The notes beneath the pieces were generated by a model. The model saw only the letters and a list, made by a program, of their open reading frames with translations. It had not been told where the DNA came from and did no database searches. From Pegethrix bostrychoides GSE-TBD4-15B (GTDB lineage Bacteria > Cyanobacteriota > Cyanobacteriia > Elainellales > Elainellaceae): a stretch of 64,000 nucleotides of DNA. The position numbers and the translations under genes were made by a program. The stretch lies in contig JAHHHV010000083.1 in assembly GCA_019359155.1 (NCBI GenBank), positions 1-64,000 on the forward strand, read 5' to 3'. Every line of letters starts with the position of its first letter. Position 1 is the stretch's first letter. Positions 8,410-19,180 of this stretch are shown one piece after another.

Positions 8410-10014
8410 ATGGATTTGCCTTCAACGCTTGAACAAAAACGGTTGCTACTGCTGACAAGCTTTGAGGCGACTAAGACCAAAGAAGCTCGAAATAAGCTAG
8501 GACAATTTGCAACTCCTCCTGCCCTAGCTCGTGCGATCATCAAGCAGGCTATCTCTTTCTTACCCCCTGAAACCCAAATTCGGTTTCTAGAACCTGGCTT
8601 TGGTACAGGAGCATTCTACTCAGCACTCCTAGAAACCGTGCCTCATACTAGAATTGCTGCTGCAACCGGGTTTGAGATCGATAAAGCCTATGGAGCTTGT
8701 CAAATTTGGTCCGATCTAAACCTGTCGTTACATCTTGAAGACTTCACAAAAGCTTCTCCGTCGCTGGATAAACCTGAGAAGTTTAACCTGATTCTCTGCA
8801 ATCCGCCTTACGTCAGGCATCATCACTTAGAAAACGACACCAAAAAGCGGTTGCAGAGTAAAACTGCTGAAGTAAGCGGCATGGAATTGTCTGGTTTAGC
8901 AGGACTGTATGGTCATTTTCTAGGACTCTCACACCCGTGGTTATCAGAAGACGGCATCGGGGCTTGGCTGATTCCAAGCGAATTTATGGATGTCAACTAC
9001 GGTAAAGCCATCAAAGATTATCTCCTCAGTCGTGTCACGCTCCTTCAGGTTCATAGGTTTGACCCAAACGATGTCCAGTTTGACGATGCCTTAGTCTCCT
9101 CAGCCGTACTCTTTCTTAAAAATGGAGCACCGCCAAAAAACCATCAGGTCACATTTACCTTTGGTAGTAGCCTTGCCACACCCCGCCTGGAAAAGAGAGT
9201 TAGCGTTGAAGCTCTACGCACTGAGCCAAAATGGACTCGCTTTCCTGCCCTTGATGCAAAGATTCTAACCGATTGCCCCCTATCCTCCTTTTTTACAATC
9301 AAGCGAGGTATTGCGACTGGCGACAACAAGTTCTTTACTCTATCAAGCGATGTTATCGCTCAAAGAGGTTTACCCCTTGAATGCTTTCGCCCGATTCTTC
9401 CGAGTCCTCGCTACTTAAAGACAGATATTATTGAAGCCCACCCTGACGGAACCCCTATCTTAGAAAATGGCTTATATGTCCTAAACTGCCGATTACCAGA
9501 ATCTCTTCTGCGTGAGCGTTATCCATCTCTTTGGGCATATCTGGAAGAAGGTAAAGAGCAGGAAGTTCACAATCGGTATCTCTGCCAGCACCGAACGCCC
9601 TGGTATGCTCAAGAACAGCGTCTGCCTACTCCCTTTATTTGCACCTATCTAGGACGTAGTGACAGTCAAAGCGGACGCCCTTTTCGATTCATCTTAAATC
9701 ACTCAAAAGCAATTGCTAGCAACGTGTATCTGTTGCTCTATCCTAATCCAGCCGTTTCTAAGCTACTCGAACAGAAACCAGCTCTACTAACAGCAGTCTG
9801 GGAAGCACTAAACGCAATCTGCCCAAATGCTTTATTAGAAGAAGGAAGAGTGTACGGCGGAGGGCTGCACAAAATGGAGCCACGGGAGTTAGGAAACGTC
9901 TCAGCCTTGACTATCAGAGATCTGTTGATTAATGAAGAGCGTGAAATGCCAAAATTCTACTCGTCTCCTAATCAAGATCCAGAAATAACGCAGCTACGGC
10001 TAGCTCTTGGCTAA
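8410..10014 (+). CDS. N6-adenine DNA methyltransferase of the XamI-type system
   Basis: A 534-residue class I SAM-dependent methylase. Motif I is FLEPGFGTGAF (from residue 59) and the catalytic motif IV is NPPY (131-134), typical of adenine methylation by Eco57I-like enzymes. The C-terminal half carries a target-recognition type region (FFTIKRGIATGDNKFF, CQHRTPWYAQEQRLP). It follows the endonuclease gene by three bases, so the two are very likely cotranscribed. Its role would be to protect GTCGAC sites by methylating the adenine; the exact site is inferred from the partner. The sequence looks complete, with no broken motif. Confidence 0.93.
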   Translation: MDLPSTLEQKRLLLLTSFEATKTKEARNKLGQFATPPALARAIIKQAISFLPPETQIRFLEPGFGTGAFYSALLETVPHTRIAAATGFEIDKAYGACQIWSDLNLSLHLEDFTKASPSLDKPEKFNLILCNPPYVRHHHLENDTKKRLQSKTAEVSGMELSGLAGLYGHFLGLSHPWLSEDGIGAWLIPSEFMDVNYGKAIKDYLLSRVTLLQVHRFDPNDVQFDDALVSSAVLFLKNGAPPKNHQVTFTFGSSLATPRLEKRVSVEALRTEPKWTRFPALDAKILTDCPLSSFFTIKRGIATGDNKFFTLSSDVIAQRGLPLECFRPILPSPRYLKTDIIEAHPDGTPILENGLYVLNCRLPESLLRERYPSLWAYLEEGKEQEVHNRYLCQHRTPWYAQEQRLPTPFICTYLGRSDSQSGRPFRFILNHSKAIASNVYLLLYPNPAVSKLLEQKPALLTAVWEALNAICPNALLEEGRVYGGGLHKMEPRELGNVSALTIRDLLINEEREMPKFYSSPNQDPEITQLRLALG

Positions 10015-11644: not shown

Positions 11645-11690
11645 AGGACTGAAAATCCTCGTGTCACCAGTTCAAGTCTGGTTCCTGGCA
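11645..11690 (+). tRNA. 3' fragment of tRNA-Phe(GAA), integration scar
   Basis: Forty-six bases match tRNA positions 28 to 73: most of the anticodon stem and the loop CTGAAAA (anticodon GAA), variable GTGTC, a perfect T-arm (ACCAG TTCAAGT CTGGT), the 3' acceptor strand TCCTGGC and discriminator A, without CCA. The D-arm and 5' acceptor strand (GCCAGGA expected) are absent upstream, so it is not a functional tRNA. Such fragments are left at the distal end of elements that integrate into the 3' half of a tRNA gene. The intact tRNA-Phe should lie elsewhere, probably left of this window. Confidence 0.88.
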
Positions 11691-11733
11691 TATTTTATTC
11701 TGACTAAAAACCTCTGAAACTGTCTAGCTGCTT

Positions 11734-11798: not shown

Positions 11799-11828
11799 CG
11801 ACAGATTTAGGCAAGTTTTAGTCAAGTG

Positions 11829-12962
11829 ATGATTGACGGCAAAATCTCTCAGGCTAATGGGCGGCTTTCTCTAGGAAAGATTGGAGTAACAATCGAACGG
11901 ATAGGAGATCGCCTCTATTTACGGGCTACTTTGCCGCCGCGCCCTGGCGCTAGCCGCAGTGAGCCACATCAGCAGCGCTTGGCGCTGGGCCTCTGGGCTA
12001 ATCCCGCTGGAGTCTCGCAGGCTGAGAAATTGGCGCGGCGGATCAGCGCCGATCTAGCCTGCGGAACGTTCGACTGGTCAGGGTATGTCGCCGCGAGTAG
12101 TAAAAAAACGAGTATCAGCGCCCTAGAAAATGTGCTGGCTGAGTTTGAAAAATCAGCCCGATCCTGCATTAGTGACACAACTTGGAAAACAGAATATGAG
12201 CGCGTTTTCAGTCGCTTCGGAGCTGGCGACCAGGAGCTAACTGCTGAGCTGCTGGAAAGAGTCATCTTGCAGACTGCGCCAGATTCACGGCAGCGCCGCC
12301 GCTTCTGTGTCAGTTTGGGGCGGCTGGCTGCATTCGCTGGGCTAGAAGTTGACTTTGGGCGGTTGCGCGGGAAATACAGCGCCAGCGCTCTGGAGCCGCG
12401 TGATCTGCCCAGCGATGAGCAGATCTTGCAGCAGGCCGCCGCGATTAAGTCTGACGGCTGGCGCTGGCTCTACGGAATGATGGCGGCCTATGGCCTGCGA
12501 AACCATGAGCCATTCTTTCTAGATTGCGAAGTGATGAGATCCGGGGGCTATCAGATTCGCGTTTTGGCCGGCAAAACTGGCGCTAGAAATGTTTGGCCGT
12601 TTTATCCTGACTGGGTTGATCTGCTGGATCTGCGGTCGGTAGTGCTGCCAGCAGTCACAGGGAAGACTCACGCAGACTATGGGAGCCGCGTGAGTCAATA
12701 CTTTGGGCGTAATCTCAGCCTACCGTTTCAGCCCTATGATTTGCGTCACTGCTGGGCAGTGCGAACGCTGAAGCTAGGGCTAGATCTGAGTCTGGCAGCT
12801 CAGCAGATGGGGCATAGCTTGAAAGTTCACTCTGAGACTTACCACCGCTGGATTTCAGATGAGGTTCATCAGCAGGCTTTTAATCGGATTCAGCAGCGCG
12901 ACGGCGGCGGCGCGGCGGCGGCGGCTCCCTCAGAAACGGTGAGGTATGCAGATGATCTGTGA
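11829..12962 (+). CDS. Tyrosine recombinase/integrase (full length)
   Basis: About 377 residues, taken from the ATG at 11829 (a GTG lies one codon earlier). Residues 1-95 form an arm-binding-like N-terminal region (GKIGVTIERIGDRLYLRATL, QQRLALGLWA). Then come a helical core-binding domain and the catalytic domain. Visible catalytic residues are R224 (YGLRNHE), a lysine in the AGKTG hairpin, R306 in YDLRHCWAVR, H329 (MGH) and the nucleophile Y338 (SETYHRW). The usual first His of the HxxR box is Tyr303. It lies about 140 bp beyond the tRNA-Phe scar, so it probably uses a tRNA-like site. It is a full-length relative of the recombinase at 18.3-19.2 kb. The last 80 bases overlap the antisense HTH gene. 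Confidence 0.9.
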   Translation: MIDGKISQANGRLSLGKIGVTIERIGDRLYLRATLPPRPGASRSEPHQQRLALGLWANPAGVSQAEKLARRISADLACGTFDWSGYVAASSKKTSISALENVLAEFEKSARSCISDTTWKTEYERVFSRFGAGDQELTAELLERVILQTAPDSRQRRRFCVSLGRLAAFAGLEVDFGRLRGKYSASALEPRDLPSDEQILQQAAAIKSDGWRWLYGMMAAYGLRNHEPFFLDCEVMRSGGYQIRVLAGKTGARNVWPFYPDWVDLLDLRSVVLPAVTGKTHADYGSRVSQYFGRNLSLPFQPYDLRHCWAVRTLKLGLDLSLAAQQMGHSLKVHSETYHRWISDEVHQQAFNRIQQRDGGGAAAAAPSETVRYADDL

Positions 12963-14173: not shown

Positions 14174-14419
14174 CTAGCAATCGTCAGGAACGTCTGAAAC
14201 GTCTAGCTCAAGCTCCTGAGCCAGACGTTTTAGGGAAACATTCAAGACTTTAGCCATAGCGATAGCTTTATCAAAGGCTGGAATCGCGCCGCCGTTCTCC
14301 CAGTCCCTAACTGTCTTCTCAGTTGCTCCTACCGCAAAAGCAAAACGAGCTTGAGTTAGTTCAGCCTGCTTTCGTAAAGTTTTCAAACCTTCTCTCCGCT
14401 TAGCGTTCTTCTCATTCAT
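14174..14419 (-). CDS. XRE-family HTH repressor of the element
   Basis: An 81-residue lambda-repressor-like protein, taken from the ATG opening MNEKNAKRREG; a TTG at 14446 would extend into the operator region. The HTH is clear: LRKQAELTQARFAFAVGATE, TVRDWENGGAIPAFDKAI, followed by a short acidic dimerisation-type tail. It is transcribed leftward, divergent from the rightward replication block. Two copies of GGTAGyCAACTACC lie just upstream in the divergent promoter region. By analogy with temperate phages and satellites it should repress the rightward genes and itself; that is inference from layout. Confidence 0.85.
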   Translation of the reverse strand: MNEKNAKRREGLKTLRKQAELTQARFAFAVGATEKTVRDWENGGAIPAFDKAIAMAKVLNVSLKRLAQELELDVSDVPDDC

Positions 14420-14437
14420 ATTAGGTACTTGACGTGC

Positions 14438-14476
14438 GGTAGTCAACTACCTAATATTTTAGGTAGCCAACTACCT
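14438..14476. promoter_or_regulatory. Paired palindromic operators upstream of the repressor
   Basis: GGTAGTCAACTACC (14438-14451) and AGGTAGCCAACTACCT (14461-14476) share the palindrome GGTAGyCAACTACC, centre to centre about 24 bp, with an AT-rich TAATATTTT between. Location in the divergent control region makes them the likely repressor binding sites. Confidence 0.7.
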
Positions 14477-14594
14477 GTGAGTTGGTGAAAGTGAGCAGGG
14501 TGCATCTACCGGGTCAGTGGAGGATCGCGCCCTGCTCATCCCCATATCAACAGCCCTAGCGGCTTTCTCGTCAATCAATACAGAGGAACTACAC

Positions 14595-15251: not shown

Positions 15252-17738
15252 ATGTTCAAAATTACCGAGCACGTTGAGTTCAACGCATCAGGCCGTGCGG
15301 TCTGCCCCAGCTGCGCCCAGGACGGCAAAAGCACAAAGCTAAATCTTTCACTCATCCCCGATACCGACGGCGCATACAAATGCTTTCGCGGATGCAGTCC
15401 AGAAATGATCCGATCGGCGCTCGGTGCGAGCAAGCCCCAGCAAATTCCTCAAGCACTGGCGACCCCAGTAAGAGTCACGACCGTTTCTCCCTCGCAGGTA
15501 AAAACAGCGAACCAGCAGCTGCTAGACAGCGCTGGCCCCGCGAAACAGTGGCTGCATGATCGGCTGATCACAGATGAGATGATCAGCCGCTATCAGCTGG
15601 GAAAAGCCAGGTCAGCCGCTGGGAATCGGCATCTCCCAGCCATATCCATACCCATTCCCGCGAACGCTGACGGCACTGCCTACTATCAGAAGAAACGAGT
15701 TGCGCCGTGGGACGCGACGGCCAGCGAACTGCCTGGATATATGGCCTGGTCACAGAAGGGATTACCCGCGCTGGTCTGGTTCAGCTATCTGCCAGCTGAA
15801 GCCAGCCAGACTTGGCTATGCGAGGGTGAATGGGATGCCATGCTGCTGGGCTGGCACGTCCGGCAGGCAGATCTGCCCGTCGCAGTCGCCAGCTTCACCT
15901 GCGGCTGTAAAAATGTGCCACCGGCTGACCAGCTGGAGCTGCTGCCGGGGGACGTGACGATCTTCTACGATCGCAATGACAAGCCGCTCAAAGATGGAAG
16001 CCGGCCAGGGGACGACGGCGCGCTGAAAGCAGCCAAAGCGCTGGGCGACCGGGCGAAGCTGGGCAAAGTGCCGATGTTTCTAGACAGCGAAGCTCAGGGC
16101 TGGGATGTTACCGACGCATTCAAGGCTGGCTACACCCTAACTCACTTCGTGGCAGCGGCAGCAGCAGCCACAGCACCGCCCGCACCGCCAGAAGTCAAGA
16201 AACACAACCCGCTCCGCGAGCGCCTGGTCTGGAATGATGAGCTAATGGCGCGCGCCCCGGACTATACCGAGTGGCTCGTCGATGAACTGCTGACAGCTAA
16301 CGAGCTGTTTCTACTGGCAGCGGGGCCGAGGGCAGGCAAGTCACTCATGGCCATGACGCTGGCCAAAGCAGTGGCCGAGGGGGGCGAGTTTCTGGGCAGG
16401 CCAGTCACACAGGGCACGGTGATCTATGTCTGCATGGAAGACGGAGAGAATAAGCTCAAGGCCAGAGAGACGGCACAGGGATGGAGTGAGGGTCTGCCGG
16501 TTGTCTGGCTTCAGAAATTTAAGCTCAGCGAGCTGCCCTATCTAAGGGAGCTGGTAGAAGAGCTAGACCCCAGGCTCGTCATCATCGATACGCTTTCGCG
16601 GGTCAAGGATTCCGGCGTATCAGAATCATCGGCTGAAATGAGCCAGCTTTTAGATCCGATTCAGGAGATGGCGAAGGATCTAGAGTGCTGCTGTCTATTA
16701 GTACACCACACCGGAAAAGTGAACCTAGACACAGCAGATCAGATCGATGTTTTCGACACGATCAGAGGTTCAAGTGCGATCAGAGCAGTCTGCCGAGGCA
16801 CGATGGTGCTGGCTGCTGGAGAGCGAAATTATCGGCTCTGCGTTGAAAATGGCTGGGGAAAACATGACCTAAACATCATTTTGGATGCCAATACACTCAC
16901 CTGGAGACTGATCGGAGAGTGGAAACCGACGATCAACGGCGATCAAAAGTCGCGGGTTATCCAATACCTCAAGCAGACTCAAGAGGCATCTCTGGAGCAA
17001 ATGCACGCTGATTTGGACATACCCAGGGACAGTCTTTACAAAGTGTTAAGCAAGCTAGCGACAGCCGAAGTTGCTGAAGAAAAGGTGGTCAAAAAAGGCC
17101 GCAGGCGTTGCTACGTATACACTTTGGAGCTTTTTCACAAGGCAGAATCGCTATTGGACTATATTGGACAGAATCCAATACAGTCCAATAGGCCAAACCC
17201 AGACACAGCAAGCGATAGATGCCCTATTGGACAGAATTTACTTTTTTCTTCTGACGCTTCAGGATCGATCATCGATCAAAGTGTCACATGTGCCAGTTTG
17301 ATCGATGATCGATCCGATTCTCTAAGAGAAGTTGTCCAATATAAGCTAAAAAGAGGCTCAAACCCAGGCAGGGCAAAGGTTTTGCCTATTGGACAGCTAT
17401 TGGACAGCACTTTTTCAGAAGTGCCTCAAAGCCAGACAGAGCAAGCATCTCAGCCTATTGGATCGCTATTGGACTCTATTGGACAGCGCGATAAATCAGA
17501 ATCCAGGATCGATCAAAGTGGCACATGTGCCAGTTGGGAAAATCTGAAGCAAGGCGATTGGGTTGAATTTCTGCACAAGGGGAAATGGTTTTTAGCTGAA
17601 TTTGTGCGGCAGCATCCCAATATGAAATACTCTCGCCATTCGAGATCACTTGAAGCCGCGATAGTAGTACAGCTGGCAGATGAATCGACGGCAACGATCA
17701 CTTTTGACCGCTTGCGGCGGCCTGTGGAGGGTGAGTGA
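15252..17738 (+). CDS. Primase-helicase (zinc ribbon / TOPRIM / RepA-like AAA) replication protein
   Basis: 828 residues. A zinc-ribbon opens the protein (CPSC at 18-21, CFRGC at about 44-48), as in DnaG-type primases. A TOPRIM-like region follows (WLCEGEWDAMLLG near 192, TIFYDRNDKP near 235). Next is a RecA-fold helicase of the RepA/AAA_25 type: P-loop AAGPRAGKSL near 355, LVIIDTLSR near 440 and a CCLLVHHTGK sensor. A winged-helix segment follows near 570-620 (SLEQMHADLDIPRDSLYKVL). The last 200 residues are repetitive (PIGQLLDS and IDQSxTCAS words), because the DNA carries iterons and a large palindrome. Together these mark a replication initiator of a phage satellite or integrative plasmid. 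The next gene overlaps its stop (TGATG). Confidence 0.88.
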   Translation: MFKITEHVEFNASGRAVCPSCAQDGKSTKLNLSLIPDTDGAYKCFRGCSPEMIRSALGASKPQQIPQALATPVRVTTVSPSQVKTANQQLLDSAGPAKQWLHDRLITDEMISRYQLGKARSAAGNRHLPAISIPIPANADGTAYYQKKRVAPWDATASELPGYMAWSQKGLPALVWFSYLPAEASQTWLCEGEWDAMLLGWHVRQADLPVAVASFTCGCKNVPPADQLELLPGDVTIFYDRNDKPLKDGSRPGDDGALKAAKALGDRAKLGKVPMFLDSEAQGWDVTDAFKAGYTLTHFVAAAAAATAPPAPPEVKKHNPLRERLVWNDELMARAPDYTEWLVDELLTANELFLLAAGPRAGKSLMAMTLAKAVAEGGEFLGRPVTQGTVIYVCMEDGENKLKARETAQGWSEGLPVVWLQKFKLSELPYLRELVEELDPRLVIIDTLSRVKDSGVSESSAEMSQLLDPIQEMAKDLECCCLLVHHTGKVNLDTADQIDVFDTIRGSSAIRAVCRGTMVLAAGERNYRLCVENGWGKHDLNIILDANTLTWRLIGEWKPTINGDQKSRVIQYLKQTQEASLEQMHADLDIPRDSLYKVLSKLATAEVAEEKVVKKGRRRCYVYTLELFHKAESLLDYIGQNPIQSNRPNPDTASDRCPIGQNLLFSSDASGSIIDQSVTCASLIDDRSDSLREVVQYKLKRGSNPGRAKVLPIGQLLDSTFSEVPQSQTEQASQPIGSLLDSIGQRDKSESRIDQSGTCASWENLKQGDWVEFLHKGKWFLAEFVRQHPNMKYSRHSRSLEAAIVVQLADESTATITFDRLRRPVEGE
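17152..17484. repeat. Iteron array TATTGGAC inside the replication gene
   Basis: Nine exact copies of TATTGGAC or its complement start at 17152, 17162, 17183 (inverted), 17225, 17334 (inverted), 17387, 17398, 17467 and 17477; a variant TATTGGAT is at 17456. Pairs are spaced 10-11 bp, one helical turn, as in plasmid iterons. They lie within coding sequence in the 3' part of the primase-helicase gene. Confidence 0.8.
17263..17314. repeat. 52-bp palindrome with CACATGTG centre, plus a partial copy
   Basis: The 18-bp arm at 17263-17280 (GATCGATCATCGATCAAA) is perfectly complementary to 17297-17314. The 16-bp centre holds TCACATGTGCC. A shorter related copy at about 17507-17536 contains the perfect palindrome GGCACATGTGCC. 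It is embedded in the iteron array and in frame. Confidence 0.8.
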
Positions 17739-18061: not shown

Positions 18062-18369
18062 GACATCCTGATCCACTCACTTTATCCAGCTCGCTCTGGC
18101 TAACACCCCAAAAAATCGCAGGGCTGCAAACCTCTCTGGCTACCTGGATGGGGCTAGACCGTGAGACGCTCTGGGCGGTCGCGTTCCATTCCAGCCTGAT
18201 CGACGTTCTGGGCGAGCTGCTGGAGCCAGAGAGCAGCGGCCTGCTGGATTACGTGGCAAACCATTGCCCCAGGGTAAATCGAACGCTACGGGCGCAACAG
18301 GTGCGATATGTCGCGCTGCACTGGCTCGCAGATCTCGCACTCAGCCAGGGAGATACCCGGCTTGATTAA
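18058..18369 (+). CDS. Small hypothetical protein, paralogue B
   Basis: 103 residues; the start overlaps the stop of paralogue A by four bases (ATGA), a translational-coupling arrangement. It begins HPDPLTLSSSLWLTPQKIAG and ends AQQVRYVALHWLADLALS, matching paralogue A over its full length at low identity. Its 3' end overlaps the possible start region of the second recombinase by about 60 bases. Function is unknown; tandem retention of both copies suggests a heteromeric pair or recent duplication within the element. Confidence 0.65.
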   Translation: MRHPDPLTLSSSLWLTPQKIAGLQTSLATWMGLDRETLWAVAFHSSLIDVLGELLEPESSGLLDYVANHCPRVNRTLRAQQVRYVALHWLADLALSQGDTRLD

Positions 18370-19180
18370 AGGGAGCTGCCGCTACTGGATCGAGCGCTTC
18401 AGGGATGACTTCTACCAGCGGGGCCGCTCTGAGACTACCTGGCAGACTGACTACCTGAAGATCCTGAAAAAGCTGCCGCCAGATTCCTCGCTGACGGCAG
18501 CAGTCTTGCATCAAATCGTGCTGGAGACGATACCCAATACTAAATCACGCCGGAGAGCCTGCATGGTCACTAAACAGCTTGCAACGTTCGCAGATATCAA
18601 CTATGACCCCAAGCCATACCAGGGCAACTACAGCCCCAAGCGACCGCAGCCCAGAGACATCCCGACAGATGCCGCAATTGCTGCTTACTGGATCACACTC
18701 AAGAATCCCGGCTGGCGGTTCATCTATGGCCTGATTGCCACCTATGGCCTGCGACCGCATGAGGCGTTTCAAGTCGATTACGATAGGCTCGCCGTCGGCG
18801 ATCGTGTTCTCTGGGTTTTAGCAGGCAAAACCGGATCGCGCCGGGTTTGGGCGTTCCATCCAGAATGGTTCGATCAGTTCGAGCTGGCCTCACCAGTGCT
18901 GCCAGCAGTCAACCTCAGCCGCCGCAATGATCAGATCGGCCATAGCGCCACGCGCCACTTTTGGGAGCTGAAGGCTCCATTCAAGCTCTATGACCTGCGC
19001 CACGCATGGGCAATCAGAACGCTCGAATATGGGTTAGAAGACGCGCTGGCCGCTCGTCAGATGGGTCACAGTGTCGAGATTCACAACTCGATCTATCAGC
19101 ACTGGCTCGACGAGAAAACTCAGCAACGGGCTTATGATCGCCTGCTCAGTCGAGCCGACCGACCGAAGCCGCCGCAGTGA
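18308..19180 (+). CDS. Tyrosine recombinase/integrase lacking the N-terminal arm domain
   Basis: Up to 290 residues; the true start is unclear (ATG at 18308 inside the previous gene, or a later alternative codon near 18363). It aligns with the recombinase at 11.8-13.0 kb from the core-binding domain onward: YWIERFRDDFYQ, TTWQTDYLKILKKL, ATYGLRPHEAF (catalytic Arg), VLAGKTGSRRVW, YDLRHAWAIRT, ARQMGHSVEIHNSIYQHW (His and the nucleophile Tyr). All late catalytic residues are present, but about 100 N-terminal residues are missing compared with the other copy. Its stop lies 64 bp from the 3' end of tRNA-Glu, the classical position for an integrase using that tRNA as its site. Confidence 0.85.
   Translation: MSRCTGSQISHSAREIPGLIKGSCRYWIERFRDDFYQRGRSETTWQTDYLKILKKLPPDSSLTAAVLHQIVLETIPNTKSRRRACMVTKQLATFADINYDPKPYQGNYSPKRPQPRDIPTDAAIAAYWITLKNPGWRFIYGLIATYGLRPHEAFQVDYDRLAVGDRVLWVLAGKTGSRRVWAFHPEWFDQFELASPVLPAVNLSRRNDQIGHSATRHFWELKAPFKLYDLRHAWAIRTLEYGLEDALAARQMGHSVEIHNSIYQHWLDEKTQQRAYDRLLSRADRPKPPQ

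Follow-up and report, generated by a model that had tools for sequence, protein, structure and literature searches.

A likely replication origin within the initiator gene of a tRNA-integrating cyanobacterial element

RESULTS

Iterons and a palindrome in the 3′ part of a replication gene

The window (the whole stretch of DNA analysed here, 64,000 nucleotides from Pegethrix bostrychoides GSE-TBD4-15B) carries a replication initiator gene, rep, followed by two small ORFs, an integrase gene and a tRNA-Glu gene. The features of the locus are the following.

14174-14446, minus strand: HTH repressor-like gene, which recurs next to rep in related elements
15252-17738, plus strand: initiator (rep) gene, 828 aa, assigned from Pfam, PHROGs, structure model and fold matches
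17152-17190, no strand assigned: first iteron block, two forward then two inverted, with TATTGGAC at 17152, 17162 and 17183 (minus) and one imperfect inverted copy between
17191-17224, plus strand: first spacer, with the CAAACCCAGACACAGCAAGCGATA motif; the divergent iterons on its two sides start 43 bp apart
17225-17252, plus strand: inner iteron, then a T-rich tract, a candidate unwinding element
17262-17315, no strand assigned: 54-bp palindrome with centre CACATGTG, 25/27 paired, outer 19 bp perfect
17334-17341, minus strand: inverted iteron (TATTGGAC copy) beyond the palindrome
17342-17386, plus strand: second spacer, carrying CAAACCCAGGCAGGGCAA, a related motif; the iterons on its two sides start 54 bp apart
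17387-17484, plus strand: four further iterons as two pairs, 17387/17398 and 17467/17477; the spacer motif occurs a third time at 17427
17496-17535, no strand assigned: partial second copy of a palindrome half, 88% over 40 nt, with a perfect TGGCACATGTGCCA centre
18308-19180, plus strand: tyrosine integrase (type B) of the element, Pfam PF00589
19244-19316, minus strand: tRNA-Glu(TTC), 3′ end facing the integrase, probable attachment site

The octamer TATTGGAC is present in nine exact copies within 333 bp (17152, 17162, 17183 minus, 17225, 17334 minus, 17387, 17398, 17467 and 17477) and is found nowhere else in the window, for an expectation from shuffled sequences of 0.82 on average and 5 at most. 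Three same-strand pairs are spaced by 10, 11 and 10 bp. Several short repeats of the same motif, spaced by close to one helical turn and more numerous than expected by chance, correspond to what is called iterons. The iterons, the palindrome and its partial copy all lie within the 828-aa ORF.

These data largely confirmed a first-pass annotation made from the sequence alone. The nine octamers, their pairing one helical turn apart, the partial second palindrome and the location of all these inside an open reading frame held, and the palindrome proved slightly longer than the 52 bp with an 18-bp arm that had been described. Three features had been missed: the spacers of about 43 bp, in which a CAAACCCAGACACAGCAAGC motif recurs, the tRNA-Glu gene beyond the integrase, and the altered repeats of homologues. 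The annotation was to be rejected if the octamer was equally frequent elsewhere. This is not the case: against nine copies in 333 bp, only 40 of the 49 copies of the 5.72-Mb genome lie outside the array, and no second cluster was found among them, either in the rest of this contig or in the genome count. A dispersed genomic repeat is ruled out by this count.

Inverted repeats, TAGTCAACTACCT and AGGTAGCCAACTACCT, are also present at 14446-14520 in the divergent promoter of the HTH repressor gene and are probable operators.

The repeats are held as DNA and are not forced by the peptide

The peptide words PIGQ, LLDS and IDQS recur in the translated array, as the first-pass annotation had noted. 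They might therefore be the selected entity, the DNA repeats being a mere consequence. This explanation meets several difficulties. The TATTGGAC copies use all three codon phases and both strands, and the words starting at the nine copies are LLDY, YIGQ, QSNR, PIGQ, VQYK, PIGQ, LLDS, LLDS and SIGQ. When synonymous codons were resampled with the peptide fixed, no more than three copies appeared in any of 5000 trials; when the synonymous codons of the segment itself were permuted, no more than six appeared in 2000 trials, compared to nine observed. Since recoding with a fixed peptide loses copies, the repeats are maintained as DNA. Moreover, the peptide encoded here is predicted to be disordered and diverges between homologues: the window protein and that of L003, its nearest relative by identity, share 65% of residues in the catalytic part and 32% in the linker. 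Peptide-driven repeats are refuted as a full explanation by the synonymous recoding, and protein-level selection as the origin of the array is all but excluded. The repeats of the array are thus selected as DNA. Their presence within the coding sequence of an initiator, together with their maintenance as DNA, is what characterizes an origin inside an initiator gene, as in lambda O.

The initiator is predicted to combine a primase-helicase with a winged helix

The rep product matches AAA_25 in Pfam (1.5e-29) and DNA primase/helicase in PHROGs (1.9e-30). Its closest solved helicase by sequence is RSF1010 RepA (1g8y, E 1e-14), and the sequence after the helicase part matches winged-helix proteins. 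A structure model was built from 28 homologues; the best fold matches of its catalytic part include T7 gp4 and human Twinkle. The following parts (all plus strand) were distinguished.

N-terminal part of the 828-aa protein: predicted Zn-finger/TOPRIM primase part
aa 320-490: RecA-like helicase (AAA_25), from Pfam
aa 565-625, codons at 16944-17126: winged helix, from the structure model
aa 592-603: predicted recognition helix, in which aa 593 and 597 are tied to iteron positions -5 and -4 (see below)
aa 639-760: linker, predicted to be disordered
aa 770-817: small C-terminal beta domain, from the structure model

The modelled winged helix consists of helices 565-576, 581-588 and 592-603 and strands 612-615 and 622-625. 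Across 639-760 pLDDT is below 50, and the small beta domain follows. Codons 634-745, which contain the iterons (17152-17484), coincide almost exactly with this disordered linker. The model thus predicts a T7-gp4-like primase-helicase joined to a winged helix, a disordered linker and a C-terminal domain. Primase, helicase and winged helix in one protein is an arrangement like that of P4 alpha. Homology to lambda O was not detected, Pfam giving only AAA_25 and DnaB_C and PHROGs only primase/helicase. No homologue at 80% coverage of the protein was found in phage and plasmid records, and viral contigs gave partial matches only. L067, L068, L080 and others match aa 2-313 only, the primase part being joined there to different second halves.

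Homologues carry other repeats in the same layout

Searches of cyanobacterial genomes yielded about 30 homologues with most of the protein. Besides the window, 25 of them had a definable repeat at the corresponding position of the gene. Aligned by hand on their common 3′ end, they represent 13 nonamers including that of the window.

TATTGGACA: window
TATTCAACA: L003, L004, L044, L050, L057
AGTTCAACA: L005, L014, L048, L051, L052
AATTCAACA: L049, L063, L064
CATCTGACA: L047
AGTCTGACA: L060
AATCTGACA: L062
GCGCCAACA: L015, L059
GTCCTAACA: L054, L055
GCTCAAACA: L061, L065
TCTCCAACA: L058
TACCTATCA (weak): L006
CGCTGGACA (weak): L008

In most homologues the commonest octamer beats every shuffle; in L006 and L008 it does no better than the shuffles. 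No clear repeat was seen at the corresponding place of L007, and the L046 sequence ends too early to show repeats. Between the window (TATTGGAC) and L003 (TATTCAAC), the same difference is found in all copies. Over the 20 kb around each locus, repeat clusters hardly occur outside the rep tail. Neither the rep promoter nor the rest of these 20-kb loci showed another iteron cluster.

The layout is common to most copies. Two forward iterons are followed by two reversed ones, a spacer, one forward iteron with A/T-rich DNA, and a centre; beyond the centre come one reversed iteron, a second spacer and at least two forward iterons. Across the spacers, iteron starts are 41-45 bp apart in most copies, the 54 bp of the window's second spacer being an exception, and a spacer motif close to CAAACCCAGACACAGCAAGCGATACAG is present in most. 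The G+C content of the region is below that of the gene body in 25/26 copies, and in many an A/T-rich tract follows the inner iteron; unwinding itself is only inferred. The centre is more variable. In many homologues it is made of AAAAGTGATCA and its reverse. A palindrome around CACATGTG is present in the window and L004, with a weaker one in L003, and the L060-L064 group has neither palindrome nor AAAAGTGATCA-type repeats in the centre. The palindrome is therefore not general, since most other homologues have GTGATCA repeats or neither. Direct comparison of the two dyads showed that the centre and both mismatch positions are shared by L004 and the window, while the arms are entirely different.

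The first-pass annotation had suggested aligning homologous genes to see whether repeats are kept while the peptide varies. The result is in its favour, with the qualification that what is kept is the layout, with other octamers. It also bears on the possibility of chance or of an inserted repetitive element (MITE, REP or STRR type), for which the many short repeats of cyanobacterial genomes could be invoked. The octamer is not clustered elsewhere in the genome and homologues hold other repeats in the same layout, so that this possibility can be practically discarded.

Two further observations concern particular loci. L116 (4246-4790) and L115 (3580-4260) have frame-shifted rep genes that keep the iteron array; the frameshifts are possibly sequencing errors of these assembled genomes, and the linker frame of L116 is broken too. 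In L006 (~8760-8800), iteron copies overlap a promoter-like sequence downstream of rep, perhaps reflecting a regulatory use.

The predicted recognition helix covaries with the repeat

We scanned 607 protein columns for covariation with each of the six variable repeat positions. For position -4, aa 597 ranks first: Lys occurs with G (5/5) and other residues with A (21/21). For position -5, aa 593 ranks first, with Lys or Arg where the base is C and Asp where it is G. Both columns lie within the predicted recognition helix. A Lys with G and an Asp opposite C are chemically plausible contacts. In addition, the nine top 9-column windows by partial correlation with repeat distance, catalytic distance being held constant, all fall within aa 585-601 (partial Mantel permutation p for the helix = 0.0002). 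Two sequences outside the scan, L116 (PKRSLYNVL, ATTCAACA) and L115 (NSASVSTVM, GCTCAAACA), obey the -4 rule, and in L116 the -5 association holds as well, with Arg at 593 and C in the repeat. On a tree of the catalytic part, at least four changes are needed at position -4.

The sample has limits. It amounts to about 18 effective sequences with few independent changes, the nonamers were aligned by hand, and a sign test on well-supported branches gave 2/2 pairs, which is not significant. The Mantel test leaves some phylogeny in. For positions -9 to -6, the 607-column scan gave no clear helix signal, top columns being mostly outside the helix. Within these limits, the repeat sequence is associated with two recognition-helix residues. 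This covariation suggests that the repeats are read by the protein itself; no binding data are available.

rep probably belongs to an element integrated at tRNA genes

Eleven related loci also carry an integrase gene with rep and a tRNA gene (Phe, Met, Glu, Cys or Leu), either between the two or at their side. At L085, L089 and L091, the opposite end is marked by a second copy, 43-58 bp long, of the tRNA 3′ part, which defines elements with rep of ~12.5, 10.2 and 10.4 kb, respectively. A far att copy of tRNA-Glu was searched for in the window and not found, and the left end of the window element remains unlocated. A 6.1-kb att interval at L099 was considered as an element with this rep and rejected, rep lying beyond the second att copy. 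L099 (2091-9593) is a tandem array at tRNA-Pro with two integrases, two att copies 6.1 kb apart and different replication genes.

In two genomes of the window's genus, L111 (G534) and L112 (G476), a 75% identical integrase is found at the same tRNA-Glu, accompanied by other replication genes (527 and 771 aa) and no iteron cluster. Two other genomes of the genus have no integrase adjoining tRNA-Glu. Compared with L111 and L112, the replication module of the window element seems exchangeable.

The repeats might also serve the nearby integrase as arm-type sites, or form a partition site. The integrase gene is only ~0.8 kb downstream, and short direct repeats are one form that arm sites can take. 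Against this, the repeat sequence follows the winged helix of rep, and the L111 and L112 elements lack the cluster despite their integrase. No partition genes were recognised. We consider this explanation very unlikely.

As regards a phage satellite (PICI-like), which would depend on a helper for induction and packaging, no packaging gene was recognised. L085 (1342-4538), L087 (16413-19930), L086, L088, L096 and L098 share a cargo module (~100, 700-790 and 272 aa), which the window element lacks. The large L085 cargo protein has a collagen/tail-fibre-like part; the 272-aa protein gave no Pfam or PHROG match and no credible fold match. At 11645-11692 of the window, a tRNA-Phe 3′ fragment directly precedes a second integrase gene (type A, 11826-12962), while the intact tRNA-Phe is on contig C51 beside another integrase (L083). 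This arrangement resembles the border of a second, tandem or decayed element. L104 (G000:C57; 1281-3053 and 11059-11105 of the contig) is another element in the same genome, with a 590-aa AAA_25 protein, the same small upstream genes and a tRNA-Phe fragment.

DISCUSSION

A probable origin inside its initiator gene

We propose that the array is likely to be the replication origin of a tRNA-integrating element, located inside the 3′ part of its own initiator gene. DNA-level selection, the kept layout, the helix association, the predicted domains and the element context support this reading. Binding and the start of replication at this place are inferred only, and so are the unwinding element, the loading of the helicase and any role given to the palindrome, to the GTGATCA repeats or to the spacer motif. 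The first-pass annotation had suggested an origin recognised by its own initiator and lying inside the initiator gene; both suggestions are supported, with the same reservation for binding and initiation and with lambda O as a precedent for the second.

In the proposed mechanism, the initiator would unite a TOPRIM primase, a RecA-like hexameric helicase and a winged helix in one polypeptide, the winged helix binding 8-9-bp iterons within the DNA encoding the disordered linker of the same protein. Weak constraint on the peptide sequence of the linker is what allows it to hold such a DNA signal. After excision of the element, initiators would bind the paired and opposed iterons on either side of the centre. 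The A+T-rich tract or the central palindrome would open, the attached helicase would load and the attached primase would start synthesis.

The repeats could instead be bound by the initiator for copy control or autoregulation (titration, handcuffing), synthesis starting elsewhere in the element. Plasmid iterons commonly do both jobs, and the helix covariation shows binding at most, not initiation. However, the loci offer no alternative iteron cluster, in the rep promoter or elsewhere in their 20 kb, and the A+T-rich tract, the inverted symmetry and a primase-helicase as reader fit an origin. We therefore regard copy control alone as unlikely, and retain the origin as the preferred interpretation.

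A bolder reading is that these elements form a family of integrative replicons occurring across several cyanobacterial families, with initiator and origin inseparably united in a single gene and specificity changed by concerted rewriting of all iterons and a few helix residues. We lean towards this reading, by a small margin. If it is true, the family is a natural series for reading an initiator-iteron code, of which Lys597 with G at -4, and Lys/Arg593 with C or Asp with G at -5, would be the first entries. How initiator and origin specificity change jointly is an old question, since altering either alone should stop replication. Here both travel together in one gene, and the 13 repeat versions of related elements provide a ready-made test set. 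The array also suggests that a disordered linker can store a DNA signal inside a gene. In practice, such elements would offer possibly compatible small replicons for filamentous cyanobacteria.

Comparison with known systems

We found no description of this family, or of its series of repeats and recognition helices, in the literature searched, which is not proof of absence. Its separate features have precedents, lambda O for an origin inside the initiator gene and P4 alpha for a primase-helicase-initiator. The lambda origin, which includes iterons and an A+T-rich tract, is located in the coding sequence of O, the initiator by which it is bound (PMC4488673). O acts via P and the host helicase, on four 19-bp repeats (PMC4488673). 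Lambda O has no helicase or primase part, whereas the initiator of the window family is itself a primase-helicase, with 8-9-bp opposed iterons in the linker near the gene 3′ end.

P4 alpha similarly combines a TOPRIM-type primase, a helicase and winged-helix origin binding in one protein (PMC4234260). Its helicase is of the SF3 type and its origin is outside the alpha gene. The window family differs on both points: its helicase is not SF3 but of the RepA/T7-gp4 type (AAA_25), and the origin is inside the gene. T7 gp4 resembles the family in its catalytic fold, as does human Twinkle; gp4 has no winged helix and does not choose an origin. RSF1010 provides the closest solved helicase by sequence, RepA, and has its own iteron-binding initiator. 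Its RepA, RepB′ and RepC are separate proteins (PMC4234260), in contrast to the single polypeptide, with the origin in its gene, of the window family.

SaPI Rep and SCCmec Cch2 are also initiator helicases of mobile elements, and the short repeats bound by their C-terminal domain are found at the 3′ end of the gene; their origin is directly downstream of the gene, not inside it, and their helicases belong to other families (PMC7581432). In the Vibrio PLE satellites, the DNA-binding domain of RepA and the ori co-vary, specificity was shown by experiment, and a phage nuclease directed at the origin is the proposed selective force (PMC8263062). PLEs have a separate initiator, an intergenic origin and two replicon types (PMC8263062), whereas in the window family the association is between individual helix residues and individual iteron positions, across 13 nonamers. 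The window family thus brings known features together, with a different type of helicase and a broader range of specificities.
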